A stretch of 64,000 nt of DNA from Candidatus Methanoplasma cognatum (lineage in GTDB: Archaea > Thermoplasmatota > Thermoplasmata > Methanomassiliicoccales > Methanomethylophilaceae), in contig WRLM01000001.1 in NCBI GenBank assembly GCA_009777615.1, positions 540,984 to 604,983 on the forward strand, read 5' to 3'. The position numbers were made by a program, and so were the translations under genes. The number at the start of each line of letters is the position of its first letter. The first letter of the stretch is position 1. Of this stretch, positions 53,783 through 58,823 are shown in pieces. The notes below the pieces were generated by a model. The model saw only the letters and a list, made by a program, of their open reading frames with translations, did not search any database and was not told where the DNA came from.

Positions 53783-54334
53783 ATGATCAGAACGTTCCCC
53801 ATAAACACCCCGCGCCTCTGTCTCCGGCAGTTCATGATGAGCGATGCGAAAAAAGCATATGATAACTGGATGTCCGATGACGATGTGACCGAGTTCCTCA
53901 CGTGGGAGACGCACAGGTCCCAGGAGGAATCCGAAGGGGTGATATGGAGCTGGATACGCGCATATGAAGCGGGACTCATGGATTGGTGCATCACTCTCAA
54001 ACAGAAGCAGGAGCCCATAGGCAGCATAACCGCGGTACAGGATTTCCCGGATAAAGGATACTGCGAGCTGGGATACTGCATCGCGAAGGACCATTGGGGC
54101 AAAGGGTACATGACCGAAGCGGTGAGGGCGGTCACAGAATTCATATTCAAAAACACCGACTATGTATGGATACAGGCCAGGTGCGATTCCGAGAACTACG
54201 GATCGAGAAGGTGTCTTGAGAAAAGCAATTACAAACATGCGACAAGCCTTGAGCTTCCGTCCCCGAAAGGAAAAGGAGAGGTAAGAACTTACCATATGAT
54301 GAGGATAGACCGCAGGGACATGTTCAGAATGTGA
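53783..54334 (+). CDS. GNAT N-acetyltransferase, RimJ/RimL-like
   Basis: 183 residues. FPINTPRLCLRQFMMSDAKKA opening, then LGYCIAKDHWGKGYMTEAVRA, the acetyl-CoA-binding motif A of the GNAT_3 (ribosomal-protein acetyltransferase-like) group, and ARCDSENYGSRRCLEKSNYK as motif B. Substrate unknown; may acetylate an antibiotic, amino acid or protein N-terminus. ATG 53783 is preferred over an in-frame TTG at 53771 overlapping the preceding gene. Confidence 0.85.
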   Translation: MIRTFPINTPRLCLRQFMMSDAKKAYDNWMSDDDVTEFLTWETHRSQEESEGVIWSWIRAYEAGLMDWCITLKQKQEPIGSITAVQDFPDKGYCELGYCIAKDHWGKGYMTEAVRAVTEFIFKNTDYVWIQARCDSENYGSRRCLEKSNYKHATSLELPSPKGKGEVRTYHMMRIDRRDMFRM

Positions 54335-54339
54335 TCGTA

Positions 54340-54594
54340 ATGACGAACGAGAACTACCAAAAATGCCGCACATGCAGGTTCTGCATTCATTCTGGGGATG
54401 ATTGGGTATGTTCGCTCAGAAGCATGCCCACCAGCAGCGGCGGTTCATGCGAAAGGTACAGACCGGGCTCCTGTGAGAACTGCAACCATTTGATCATGTC
54501 CGGAGGGAACGCGCGGTGCGGGTTCACAGGAGAAGAAGCATACATACTCAGCGTCTGTTCCGATTACGACCCGTCGGGAATGAGATCAATATGA
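54340..54594 (+). CDS. Small cysteine-rich protein, probable metal-binding
   Basis: 84 residues with nine cysteines in two clusters: CRTCRFC...VCS...SCERY and SCENCNHL...RCGF...VCSDYD. This looks like two zinc-ribbon or zinc-knuckle units; the tail DYDPSGMR resembles proteins annotated as DUF-type zinc ribbons. No enzyme motif. The ATG lies 6 nt after the GNAT stop with GTGATC in front, so it belongs to the same transcript. The last 9 nt overlap the convergent DUF5685 gene. Confidence 0.7.
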   Translation: MTNENYQKCRTCRFCIHSGDDWVCSLRSMPTSSGGSCERYRPGSCENCNHLIMSGGNARCGFTGEEAYILSVCSDYDPSGMRSI

Positions 54595-55500
54595 GGCGTT
54601 CCTTTTCCTTCGGCCGTCGAACACATTCTTGAGGGAAGCCTTCGCTTCGCTAGAGCCGGACATGACCTTTTTCGCGGAATCCGGTATGCCGTAATAGACA
54701 ATGTTGTCCGCTATTCCCAGATCGAACGTCATCCGATCCCTTAAGGCAGAATATGACGTCTGGAGACCGCCTATGACCTTGTTGAGGGAATCAGAAATGT
54801 CGTAGAGGTTCTCCTCTATGAACTGCATCTTGTTCCTGAACCCTCTGCGGCCGGCCAGCAGCGGATTGTAGGTTCCGTTGATGAAATCCTCGTCAAGATC
54901 GTCTATCGCATCCATAAGATATACCGAAGCACCTAAGCTTGTGAACAATCCTTCCAGATCGCTTCCCGCTTTTTCTCCCGCAATGTCCTTCAGGGCATAT
55001 GCCAGGGATCTGCCGAACGCCTCCCCCATCCGCACGGCGTCATCGCATCCCATGCCCTCCATTCTTCTGAGTTCCTCGAACCCCCGCCCTACCGCCTCGT
55101 CGTACTCCGGATATTCCCTCTCGGCTTTCGATATCGCGCGCCCCAGTACCAGGGAGGCGCCGTTGCTCTTTATGCTTGGTCTGTCAAATGCATCATCGGT
55201 GAGTTCCCATTTTGTCAGCAGGACCGTATATGCGGCCATTTTTCTGAAAAGGTCAGAATCGGCCGAAGGATCCTTAAAAACACACAGCATGGAATTTTTC
55301 GTCCCCTCAAATCTGGGAGTGTCGCCCAAGAAGGAGTTCATGACGATCGTGTTGAAGGTCATGTCGTAATTTACGGCGGATGTAGATATTATGCCGTACC
55401 CAGATCTCAGCTGATGGCACGTTTCACAATAGTATCTCCTGTAAGTTGAAAGGTCCGAAGGGGACAATCTGCTGTAAAGAGGCACAGTATATCCGAACAT
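54586..55500 (-). CDS. DUF5685 family protein
   Basis: 304 residues, all helical. MFGYTVPLYSRLSPSDL, YRRYYCETCHQLRSGYG, AVNYDMTFNTIVMNSFLGD and LMDAIDDLDEDFINGTYNPL match the conserved blocks of DUF5685. The Asp-rich DAIDDLDED recalls the metal-binding DDxxD motif of isoprenoid synthases, and the CETCH pair may bind metal; both are visual similarities only. No function is known to me. ATG 55500; its 3' end overlaps the convergent Cys-rich gene by 9 nt. Confidence 0.75.
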   Translation of the reverse strand: MFGYTVPLYSRLSPSDLSTYRRYYCETCHQLRSGYGIISTSAVNYDMTFNTIVMNSFLGDTPRFEGTKNSMLCVFKDPSADSDLFRKMAAYTVLLTKWELTDDAFDRPSIKSNGASLVLGRAISKAEREYPEYDEAVGRGFEELRRMEGMGCDDAVRMGEAFGRSLAYALKDIAGEKAGSDLEGLFTSLGASVYLMDAIDDLDEDFINGTYNPLLAGRRGFRNKMQFIEENLYDISDSLNKVIGGLQTSYSALRDRMTFDLGIADNIVYYGIPDSAKKVMSGSSEAKASLKNVFDGRRKRNASY

Positions 55501-55675: not shown

Positions 55676-56036
55676 TTCTCCGGGAATGAGGGGGTTTTCA
55701 GTGACCAATCTTTGGCAAATGACACAGCTGTATATGGAATATCATGATGTTGAAAAACTCCAGCCATTGGTTGGAGAAATCAGCTGGGCAAAACATGTTG
55801 TCATTCTCAACCGCTGCAAGGACAACCTCGAAAGGCAATTCTATATCATGTCCGCAAAGAAATTCGGATGGACAAAAGCCGTGCTGATCCATCAGATCGA
55901 CAGCAGGAGCTATGAGAGGCATCTGCTGAATCAGACCAGTTTTGAACAACCCGTTATTTCCGTGAGCTTTTACAATGCATTTGTGACATTCGAAGCAGTG
56001 AAACCGAACGCACTTCGACTAACCATATACATGTAA
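55676..56036 (+). pseudogene. Truncated duplicate of the DUF1016 nuclease gene
   Basis: About 270 nt (55676-55950) nearly identical to 56307-56580 inside the intact gene next to it: GFSVTNLWQMTQLYMEYHDV and NLERQFYIMSAKKFGWTKAV recur. Both ends are cut: upstream sequence is unrelated and after LLNQTSFEQ the frame runs into unrelated codons to TAA at 56036. It lacks the N-terminal part and the nuclease core, so it is a partial-duplication remnant. Confidence 0.8.
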
Positions 56037-56075
56037 TACAGGGGCTTTATCTCCGAACGTTGAACGTATAGGAGC

Positions 56076-57122
56076 ATGAACAAACCAGCAAAAGAAACAG
56101 AGATAGGATCCTTTGAAAAAGCGAATATGGACTTTATAGCTGACATCAAGCTGAAGGTGCGCCAAGCGCAGTATGAGGCGATGCGGTCAGTGAACACACA
56201 GCTTGTGGCCCTCTATTGGGAACTTGGAAAGGCCATCGCGGAGAAACAGCAAGAAGGCTGGGGTAAGGCCGTCGTACCGGCCCTGTCTAAAGAATTACAG
56301 AAGGAATTTCCAGGAGTGAGGGGTTTTTCAGTGACCAACCTTTGGCAAATGGCGCAGCTATATGTGGAATATCACGGTGTTGAAAAACTCCAGTCATTGA
56401 TTGGAGAAATTAGCTGGACAAACCATGTCATCATTCTCAACCGTTGCAAGGACAACCTCGAAAGGCAATTCTATATAATGTCCGCAAAGAAATTCGGATG
56501 GACAAAAGCCGTGCTGATCCATCAGATCGACAGCAGGAGCTATGAGAGACATCTGCTGAATCAGACCAATTTTGAACATACTTTGCCTGAAAACATAAGG
56601 GGTCAGGCGGCTTTAGCAGTAAAAGATGAGTATCTTTTTGATTTCCTCGATCTCGGTGACGATTATTCAGAAAGCCAGCTTGAAACGGCGCTTGTCAACA
56701 ATATCCGTAACTTTTTGCTAGAAATGGACCTTCAGTTCGCCTTCATAGGGAATCAGTTCAGGATAGATGTTGATGATAAGGAGTATTTCATTGACCTGCT
56801 GCTATACCACCGCCAGTTGCAGTGTCTCGTGGCCATTGAACTGAAGGTAGGAGAGTTCATCCCCGAATACAAGGGGAAAATGGAGTTCTACCTGTCTGTT
56901 CTGAACGATAAAGTGAAACTGCCCAATGAGAACGACGCTGTCGGCATAATAATATGCAGAGAGAAGAACCGCACCGTGGTGGAATACTCTCTGAAAACAG
57001 GCACCATGCCTATCGGCGTCGCGACATACTCCACAACATCGGAACTGCCGGAGAGATATCAGAGGTTCCTGCCCGACGGAGAGACGATCGCTAAGAAATT
57101 GGATCATTTCAGAACCCGATGA
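56076..57122 (+). CDS. DUF1016/PDDEXK nuclease-domain protein (YhcG family)
   Basis: 348 residues. N-terminal DUF1016_N helical part (QTLV-type ALYWELGKAIAEKQQEGWG; LSKELQKEFPGVRGFSVTNL), then the C-terminal nuclease: FIGNQFRIDVDDKEYFIDLL, LQCLVAIELKVGEFIPEYKG with catalytic-type Asp and ELK. The family occurs near restriction-modification and other defence genes; activity here is not proven. ATG 56076 has GGAG only 1 nt away, too close for normal use, so initiation may be leaderless or at an internal ATG. A partial copy precedes it. Confidence 0.88.
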   Translation: MNKPAKETEIGSFEKANMDFIADIKLKVRQAQYEAMRSVNTQLVALYWELGKAIAEKQQEGWGKAVVPALSKELQKEFPGVRGFSVTNLWQMAQLYVEYHGVEKLQSLIGEISWTNHVIILNRCKDNLERQFYIMSAKKFGWTKAVLIHQIDSRSYERHLLNQTNFEHTLPENIRGQAALAVKDEYLFDFLDLGDDYSESQLETALVNNIRNFLLEMDLQFAFIGNQFRIDVDDKEYFIDLLLYHRQLQCLVAIELKVGEFIPEYKGKMEFYLSVLNDKVKLPNENDAVGIIICREKNRTVVEYSLKTGTMPIGVATYSTTSELPERYQRFLPDGETIAKKLDHFRTR

Positions 57123-57313: not shown

Positions 57314-57326
57314 ACTTAATATATTC
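57314..57326 (+). promoter_or_regulatory. Promoter of the Cys-rich peptide / radical SAM pair
   Basis: ACTTAATATATTC; transcription expected near 57345, immediately before the hairpin at 57348. Confidence 0.5.
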
Positions 57327-57347
57327 TTAAGGGGTACGCGGGATGAA

Positions 57348-57365
57348 CCTATCCAGCAGGATAGG
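57348..57365 (+). promoter_or_regulatory. 5' leader hairpin before the Cys-rich peptide gene
   Basis: CCTATCC-AGCA-GGATAGG, a perfect 7-bp stem, sits at the expected 5' end of the mRNA and is followed one base later by the ribosome binding site AGGTGA (57367-57372) and ATG 57377. Confidence 0.6.
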
Positions 57366-57376
57366 TAGGTGAAAAC

Positions 57377-57673
57377 ATGTCTCCCGATGCAAAGACCATC
57401 GAAAGCCTGACCGCATTATATATGGACCAGTCTCCCGCAGCATTCACATCGATCGCCATGCACGCCAAGGCGCCGAACGATTATTCGAAGCGCGTCGACG
57501 AAGCGGAACACGGCGGCGCCCCCGCTTGCGATTATCCCTGCTGTAATGACAGAGGGTGCTGCTCGTCCGGCTGGTGGTATCTTGGGCTGGGAGGATGCGT
57601 AGTGGTATGCTGTGCGTTCTGCTGCTACATAACGAACGGGTTCAACGGCGCATGGCCGTACTGGCCCTTCTGA
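57377..57673 (+). CDS. Cysteine-rich peptide, candidate RiPP precursor
   Basis: 98 residues. The first 47 are a Cys-free, soluble leader-like part ending in GluHisGlyGly (residues 44-47), a double-glycine junction. The last 51 contain ten cysteines (51, 55, 56, 61, 62, 74, 78, 79, 82, 83) in two similar arrays, CxxxCCx4CC and CxxxCCxxCC, separated by SSGWWYLGLGG, and end in aromatic-rich FNGAWPYWPF. Strong AGGTGA before the ATG; the stop is 7 nt from the radical SAM gene. This is the layout of ribosomally made peptides with radical-SAM-installed thioether links. Alternatives: a membrane-embedded metal-binding protein. No homologue is recognised. Confidence 0.7.
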   Translation: MSPDAKTIESLTALYMDQSPAAFTSIAMHAKAPNDYSKRVDEAEHGGAPACDYPCCNDRGCCSSGWWYLGLGGCVVVCCAFCCYITNGFNGAWPYWPF

Positions 57674-57680
57674 GCCGGAT

Positions 57681-58823
57681 ATGAGGCCGTTCATTTCGGT
57701 GATAATAAAGCCGACGCTTGATTGTAATATCGACTGCAGGCACTGCTATCACGCGTCGGAAGAGAGGTCTTCCGAAAGGATGAGCATCGATACTCTGGAC
57801 GATTTTTTCAGGAAGCTGTCCGAGGAGTACGAGTCCGTGTGGTTCATATGGCACGGCGGGGAGCCTCTGCTCATGCCGCCGGGATTCTACAAAGAGGCGC
57901 TGGACCTTCAGGAAAGGTATTTCGGCAAACGTTCCCACAGAGTGGGGAACACGATACAGACGAACGGGACGCTGCTGGATAGAAAGATGATCAGCTTCTG
58001 CAAAGACAAGATGATAAACATAGGGGTATCTTTCGAAGGCCCTTACAACGATGTTCTTCGGGAGAAAACAGAGTCGGTAAGGGAGAGATTGGATTACCTC
58101 AGCCGAAAGGAACGGGTGTTCTCGGTCAGTTCCACCATTTCCTCGGAAACGGCCTCCAAACAAAAGGAGATATACGAAAGCTTCAGGTCGGACAAGACCG
58201 CGGTGTCCCTTTCGCCGGTCATACCCGCGGGATGCGCCGCATGCGGAGGCGTGGTCCCGGATGCCGAAGAGTACATAAGATCAAGCATCGAATGTTTCGA
58301 TGAATGGCTTTTTGACAAGGATGCGGAGATACCGCTCATCCCCCACTACCTATACATCATGAATGCTCTGGGAGAGCCGGCGGAATCCGATTGCGCACAC
58401 GCCTCCTGCCTGACCAAATGGATATGCGTCTATCCCAACGGAGACCTTTATCCGTGCGGCAAAGGCTGCCCTCCCGAATTCAAACTCGGCAATCTGTCGG
58501 GGATCGACAGGATATCGGACGCATTTTTGACGGAAGGGTTCGAAAGGATCCTGAGAGGCACCGTCGAGAGAAGGAACTCCTGCATGGCGGAGTGCGATCT
58601 TTACGGATACTGCAACGGAGGGTGCAGCATCGACGCATATTACGAAGCGGGCATCAGTAAGAACGGAGGGGATTCCTGCAGGATCTTCAAAGCTGTGTTC
58701 GGACACGTCCTTTCTTCGGTGGAAGAGATCATCGAGACGCGCCCCGACCTGTCTCAGTACAACAAGTTCGTCAAGGATGCGGTCCTGGGCAGGCTGGTAA
58801 ATCCCAAGACGATCATCCCGTGA
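57681..58823 (+). CDS. Radical SAM/SPASM enzyme, probable peptide maturase
   Basis: 380 residues. The first cluster motif is CNIDCRHC (Cys15, Cys19, Cys22), then HGGEPLLM, NTIQTNGTLL and GVSFEGPYN as in anaerobic sulfatase-maturase-like enzymes. The SPASM region has CVYPNGDLYPCGKGC, LGNLSG, CMAECDLYGYCNGGC and a final Cys in GGDSC, enough ligands for two auxiliary Fe-S clusters. No sulfatase gene is near, while a Cys-rich peptide gene lies 7 nt upstream, so that peptide is the likely substrate (thioether or C-C bond formation). No dedicated protease or ABC exporter is adjacent. Confidence 0.88.
   Translation: MRPFISVIIKPTLDCNIDCRHCYHASEERSSERMSIDTLDDFFRKLSEEYESVWFIWHGGEPLLMPPGFYKEALDLQERYFGKRSHRVGNTIQTNGTLLDRKMISFCKDKMINIGVSFEGPYNDVLREKTESVRERLDYLSRKERVFSVSSTISSETASKQKEIYESFRSDKTAVSLSPVIPAGCAACGGVVPDAEEYIRSSIECFDEWLFDKDAEIPLIPHYLYIMNALGEPAESDCAHASCLTKWICVYPNGDLYPCGKGCPPEFKLGNLSGIDRISDAFLTEGFERILRGTVERRNSCMAECDLYGYCNGGCSIDAYYEAGISKNGGDSCRIFKAVFGHVLSSVEEIIETRPDLSQYNKFVKDAVLGRLVNPKTIIP

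Follow-up and report, generated by a model that had tools for sequence, protein, structure and literature searches.

A ten-cysteine peptide, a radical SAM/SPASM enzyme and a DUF5685 protein as a putative peptide-maturation module of Methanomethylophilaceae-type methanogens

The gene of a ten-cysteine peptide, the radical SAM/SPASM enzyme gene that follows it and a divergently transcribed DUF5685 gene probably constitute a three-gene peptide-maturation module of Methanomethylophilaceae-type methanogens, in which the peptide would be membrane-associated and would not act as a bacteriocin. Together they point to an unrecognised peptide-modification system in methanogens that live in guts and termites and belong to one archaeal family, and DUF5685 is possibly a categorically new element. 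Nothing relevant on radical SAM RiPPs of Methanomassiliicoccales or on DUF5685 was found in the open-access literature. The features are listed below; unless another locus is named, coordinates are positions in the window, which is the whole analysed stretch of 64,000 nt.

54586–55500, minus strand: DUF5685 protein (PF18937), 304 aa, with invariant C25/C28/C73 and the motifs D102DxxD106 and D197xxxD201xxxD205 (Pfam, alignment, structure model)
55686–57122, plus strand: DUF1016/YhcG-type PDDEXK genes, one complete and one partial copy, between DUF5685 and the peptide, outside the module
57315–57365, plus strand: conserved upstream element of putative function, A+T-rich TATA-like box (TTAATATATT) and inverted repeat CCTATCC-AGCA-GGATAGG, 5' of the ribosome-binding site (genus-level alignment)
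57377–57673, plus strand: precursor-like peptide, 98 aa, ten Cys, with homologues in 78 of 147 genomes of the order
57377–57526, plus strand: Cys-free N-terminal part of the peptide, aa 1–50, predicted helices 5–17 and 20–28, invariant Tyr15/Gln18 in LTxLYxxQSPxAF (homologue alignment, structure model)
57527–57562, plus strand: conserved Cys knuckle, aa 51–62, C-x3-CC-x3-G-x-C (homologue alignment)
57569–57631, plus strand: transmembrane-like hydrophobic helix, aa 65–85, with variable Cys and invariant C82/Y84 (hydropathy, AF2 helix)
57632–57670, plus strand: C-terminal aromatic tail, aa 86–98 (TNGFNGAWPYWPF), invariant Gly88, Trp96 and Pro97 (homologue alignment)
57681–58823, plus strand: radical SAM/SPASM enzyme, 380 aa, C15-x3-C19-x2-C22, Cys-rich SPASM region aa 238–333 (profile searches, homologue alignment)

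The peptide gene and its pairing with the enzyme

The original prediction had placed a 98-residue, ten-cysteine peptide ORF 7 nt from a SPASM radical SAM gene, and both frames were confirmed at 57377–57673 and 57681–58823: the peptide stop TGA occupies 57671–57673 and the ATG of the enzyme follows after these 7 nt. The enzyme search over 84,980 species genomes returned 48 loci, nearly all from MAGs labelled as Methanomassiliicoccales or Thermoplasmata. In 47 of these independently fetched loci a Cys-rich peptide ORF with the same tail ends 1–53 nt 5' of the enzyme, so that the pairing is not due to chance; the 48th also has the peptide, its stop codon being lost. In one MAG (L073:5624–6274) the peptide stop reads CGA and the ORF continues into the enzyme gene in another frame, this run-on being either a sequencing error or a real extension.

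The proposed coupling was borne out by genome counts as well. Among the 147 Methanomassiliicoccales genomes the peptide was detected in 78, the enzyme (E<1e-60) in 79, and the only one with the enzyme alone is a fragment truncated by a contig end. All carriers of the pair among these genomes belong to one family and represent 10 genera. Peptide homologues lacking the enzyme, named in advance as the finding that would speak against the coupling, were searched for in 147 genomes and did not appear. Thus, judged by gene content, the peptide and the SPASM radical SAM enzyme form an obligate pair. Shared ancestry and synteny account for a part of this co-occurrence, since all of it is confined to one archaeal family.

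All cysteines of the peptide are situated from residue 51 onward, while residues 1–50 contain none and are likely a recognition leader. That this leader ends in Gly-Gly, as was initially supposed, is true of the window copy and does not hold for the family, where 20 of 56 homologues have Gly at position 46; a C39-type Gly-Gly leader was therefore rejected. Cysteines of the window copy are arranged as C-x3-CC-x4-CC, then C-x3-CC-x2-CC, then the aromatic tail. The double CC arrays noticed at first sight are hence real in this copy, but they are not a defining feature: Cys 61, 74, 78 and 79 are freely exchanged among homologues for Tyr, Gly, Leu, Val and other residues, and the second array lies in the hydrophobic helix. 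Since these four positions vary while C51-x3-CC-x5-C62 is conserved, the double array is better described as a knuckle plus a Cys-rich hydrophobic helix.

Ten residues (Y15, Q18, C51, C55, C56, C82, Y84, G88, W96 and P97) are invariant over all 56 homologues, and C62 (53/53 without a gap), C83, T86, F89 and G91 are almost so. Divergent genera retain only a skeleton composed of CxxCC, the hydrophobic stretch, CC-Y and the WPF end. The aromatic tail expected after the Cys arrays proved to be conserved, with 13 residues here, 11–15 after the helix in homologues, and an invariant Trp-Pro. Hydropathy at residues 65–85 exceeds 1.6, the usual transmembrane threshold, in 55 of 56 homologues, its values being inflated by a scale that counts Cys as hydrophobic; in divergent copies, for instance SCVGIVAVLLVCCAYV, the stretch looks transmembrane-like despite few cysteines. 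The AF2 model, which is of weak to moderate confidence (pLDDT 63), forms a helix over the same residues. Neither this transmembrane-like helix nor the third component, DUF5685, was recognised in the original prediction.

Ten congeneric copies of the peptide gene show a large excess of synonymous over non-synonymous changes (dN/dS about 0.09), and constraint is not relaxed in the core, which indicates that the peptide is under purifying selection. The peptide has no family match in Pfam or NCBIfam and none of its 56 homologues has one in NCBIfam. No homologues were found in viral contigs. An inverted repeat at 57348–57365 (CCTATCCAGCAGGATAGG), recognisable in most congeners, lies shortly upstream of the ribosome-binding site of the peptide and may act as an operator or form a hairpin in the leader.

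Clustered cysteines and a transmembrane-like helix would also suit a small membrane or metal-binding Cys protein, assembled with the help of the enzyme and never covalently modified. We consider this quite improbable, since it leaves the invariance of W96 and P97 unexplained and since SPASM enzymes encoded beside small Cys peptides characteristically modify these peptides.

The radical SAM/SPASM enzyme among known maturases

Cysteines C15, C19 and C22, as well as C238, C243, C259, C301, C305, C311, C315 and C333, are invariant in 46 homologues of the enzyme. Its Pfam match to Radical_SAM is over the cut-off, and that to the SPASM model is slightly under. Cut-offs of the curated NCBIfam families were not attained by any match: the best score, 152 bits against a cut-off of 349, was registered for the anaerobic sulfatase maturase (anSME, TIGR03942), followed by 149 bits for the dynobactin maturase DynA (NF041298, cut-off 450), 115 bits for TIGR04083 (cut-off 300) and 66–74 bits for the ranthipeptide maturase models SCIFF and PapB (cut-offs 425 and 340). 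Matches of the enzyme to PADLOC "viperin" were dismissed as weak (best 42 bits) and spanning only residues ~12–127, that is the radical SAM core.

The top NCBIfam score and the best PDB profile match (E 1.8e-41) both belong to anSME, which the enzyme resembles in overall sequence and in the CX3CX2C plus SPASM layout (PDB 4k36–4k39), so that a sulfatase maturase acting elsewhere, with the peptide gene as an unrelated neighbour, has to be considered. However, the score is far under the cut-off, and the Asp that follows an auxiliary-cluster Cys (YPCD in anSME structures) and is the proposed base for formylglycine formation is replaced by Ala or Gly in the enzyme family. Sulfatase genes, detected elsewhere in the order by the same search, were not found in any of the 37 family genomes searched, the original prediction having noted none near the enzyme gene, and co-occurrence with the peptide is near-perfect. 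Sulfatase maturation was thus ruled out, and a mere neighbourhood of the two genes is extremely unlikely.

A classical secreted antimicrobial, either sactipeptide or ranthipeptide, would imply that the leader is cleaved, thioethers are formed from the Cys arrays, linking in sactipeptides a Cys thiolate to an alpha-carbon, and the product is exported. The Cys-free leader, the Cys-rich core and the adjoining SPASM enzyme are arranged as in SCIFF (CteB, 5wgg) and PapB systems, and the low-score matches to the PapB and SCIFF maturase models tend in the same direction. Nevertheless, ranthipeptide membership, which had been thought of at the outset, could not be upheld, the curated cut-offs being missed and the peptide having no model match; DUF5685, the transmembrane-like core and the absence of linked export are further differences. 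Recurring neighbours of the peptide are DUF5685 and housekeeping genes of the lineage, and no exporter, protease or immunity gene is among them; neither a linked protease nor an exporter was consistently found at the peptide loci. Moreover, the core is kept across ten genera, unlike that of arms-race peptides (the argument of PMC3023750). Secretion as an antimicrobial is, therefore, improbable.

Single-copy occurrence, a highly conserved C-terminus and the lack of a transporter follow the grammar of mycofactocin (PMC3023750), another system with a conserved small peptide and a SPASM enzyme. One can assume by this analogy that the hyperconserved aromatic tail is modified and released as a cofactor or electron carrier similar to mycofactocin or PQQ. 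Conservation of the Cys knuckle and of the hydrophobic helix goes, however, beyond the needs of a released tail, a peptidase or a dependent enzyme was not found, and the peptide, the enzyme family and the third component are all distinct from those of mycofactocin. The likelihood of such a cofactor seems to us low.

Two other known systems come close in part. DynA and darobactin-type enzymes score near anSME, and both they and the present enzyme would act on aromatic-rich peptides, but the substrate here is long, Cys-rich and membrane-like. TIGR04083 is a methanogen radical SAM enzyme of related sequence, accompanied by the idea of a Cys-rich methanogen peptide (TIGR04165, methano_modCys); none of the 56 peptides matches TIGR04165 and not one of the 101 order genomes searched has it above the cut-off, so that membership in this pair was rejected. 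A second adjacent radical SAM/SPASM gene pair is present on contig 6 of the same genome (L082:7504–10079), one gene being nearest to DynA/anSME and the other to the RiPP maturases TIGR04463/CefB. No Cys-rich precursor ORF adjoins it and it was not included in the system. The CX3CX2C motif, the SPASM set of cysteines and a dedicated adjacent precursor peptide are what distinguishes radical SAM/SPASM peptide maturases; all of these are present here, and the module appears to work like a radical SAM peptide-maturation system.

DUF5685 and cysteine-rich tails

Of 58 loci, 53 have a divergent DUF5685 gene upstream of the peptide. In four of the others a contig end cuts the locus; the fifth (L050) is probably that of genome G136, where DUF5685 is located 19 kb from the peptide on the same contig. 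The start-to-start distance is 80–440 bp in 25 of the 28 genomes measured. DUF5685 is present in 77 of 78 peptide genomes, the remaining one being 69% complete, and genomes having DUF5685 without the peptide include four with DUF5685 at a contig edge and G082 from another family of the order. When 390 genomes of the phylum were sampled, the peptide and DUF5685 above the cut-off turned up in one and the same set of 36. Thus, across the genomes compared, the divergently transcribed DUF5685 gene accompanies the peptide–enzyme pair. The complete DUF1016/YhcG-type copy lying between them in the window was scored by PADLOC as the candidate defence family PDC-S02. An 87-aa Cys-rich protein (54331–54594, plus strand; CRTCRFC...CENC), convergent with DUF5685 and having no Pfam match, was rejected as a fourth component, since it is recognised by its pattern in just 29 of 58 loci and deep branches are devoid of it.

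Residues C25, C28, C73, D102, E148, D197, D201, D205 and N212 of DUF5685 do not vary between archaea and actinobacteria, and D106 hardly does; two Asp-rich motifs, D102xxxD106 and D197xxxD201xxxD205, are common to archaea, Clostridia and actinobacteria. Its cysteines may bind a metal that activates thiols. Nearly all of the top 50 PDB matches of the AlphaFold (AF2) model (pLDDT 86.6) are isoprenoid synthases, the transferase MoeN5 among the matches, with E values of only 0.02–0.3 and TM up to 0.6. Homology to polyprenyl synthases at the sequence level was rejected, since profiles of prenyl synthases from related genomes gave hhalign probabilities of 0.1–0.3%, and the proposed isoprenoid-synthase fold of DUF5685 consequently rests on the predicted structure.

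Outside the archaeal family, a small set of nine DUF5685 loci was sampled, mostly from plasmid and phage collections. In five of five (G082, two Oscillospiraceae plasmid records and two faecal contigs) the gene next to DUF5685 encodes a J-domain protein whose C-terminus is rich in Cys, LLCNCCCCGGGF being one example; the last ~25 residues of these proteins contain 4–9 cysteines versus 0–1 in 20 ordinary DnaJ proteins. Tails of these J-proteins (L146, L147, L148, L149 and L110) are hydrophobic and Cys-rich, like those of eukaryotic cysteine-string proteins. In all four actinobacterial records DUF5685 bears its own Cys-string end with 7–15 cysteines in the last 40 residues; on these plasmids (L150–L153) the protein ends Cys/Gly/Asp-rich, as in CDCGSCCDCANCCSGCDGKGGCCDGCGCCDC. 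Based on the five Cys-rich J-protein tails and the four intrinsic Cys strings, DUF5685 accompanies a Cys-cluster C-terminus, in cis or in trans, in every context examined. In none of the nine loci was a radical SAM partner seen next to DUF5685, and this protein may therefore do something other than peptide maturation.

Proposed mode of action and its meaning

Modification of the peptide by the radical SAM enzyme under guidance of the leader is very likely. The N-terminal 50 residues would guide the enzymes, and the radical SAM protein, anSME-like but having lost the formylglycine base, would introduce a cross-link or an oxidation into the C-terminal half; a Cys thioether formed by the C-x3-CC-x5-C knuckle and a bond at the aromatic tail are the most likely products. 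Helix 65–85 may place the peptide in or at the membrane, and a membrane-associated product is likely. We are slightly inclined to think that DUF5685 works on the Cys-rich, Trp-ending C-terminal part. Given its strong conservation, and with neither exporter nor protease nor immunity gene linked to it, the peptide seems to serve the cell itself, perhaps in redox, metal or envelope functions, and a role other than warfare is favoured by this comparison; an exporter could be encoded elsewhere, which would permit a function outside the cell.

Prenylation of Cys or Trp by DUF5685 is a coherent but unproven hypothesis, of low likelihood, which follows from the isoprenoid-synthase-like predicted fold, the precedent of ComQ and PalQ and the invariant Trp third from the end. 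ComQ and PalQ, isoprenoid-synthase-fold enzymes with an Asp-rich motif, prenylate Trp at or near the C-terminus of a peptide (PMC5331326, PMC10853753), this Trp being third or fourth from the end in ComX. In contrast to the ComQ/ComX and PalQ/PalX pairs, a radical SAM enzyme is added here, sequence homology of DUF5685 to prenyl synthases is undetected and prenylation itself is hypothetical. Tentatively, and with no greater likelihood, DUF5685 may be imagined as a prokaryotic isoprenoid-synthase-fold family that prenylates Cys-string or Trp tails of Clostridia J-proteins, of actinobacterial DUF5685 itself and of the radical-SAM-modified peptide of gut methanogens.

If this were true, a peptide both prenylated and modified by a radical SAM enzyme would be a new combination of chemistries, lipidation of J-proteins at several cysteines would be a novelty among bacteria, and the Clostridia J-proteins would be a bacterial counterpart of cysteine-string or farnesylated J-proteins. 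Even the broader reading, if right, connects Cys-rich C-terminal tails with DUF5685, an uncharacterised family present in archaea, Clostridia, actinobacteria and Thermotoga, and so opens the function of this family to direct test. It would also endow the poorly understood gut methanogens with a conserved modified peptide, carried by most members of the dominant host-associated family.
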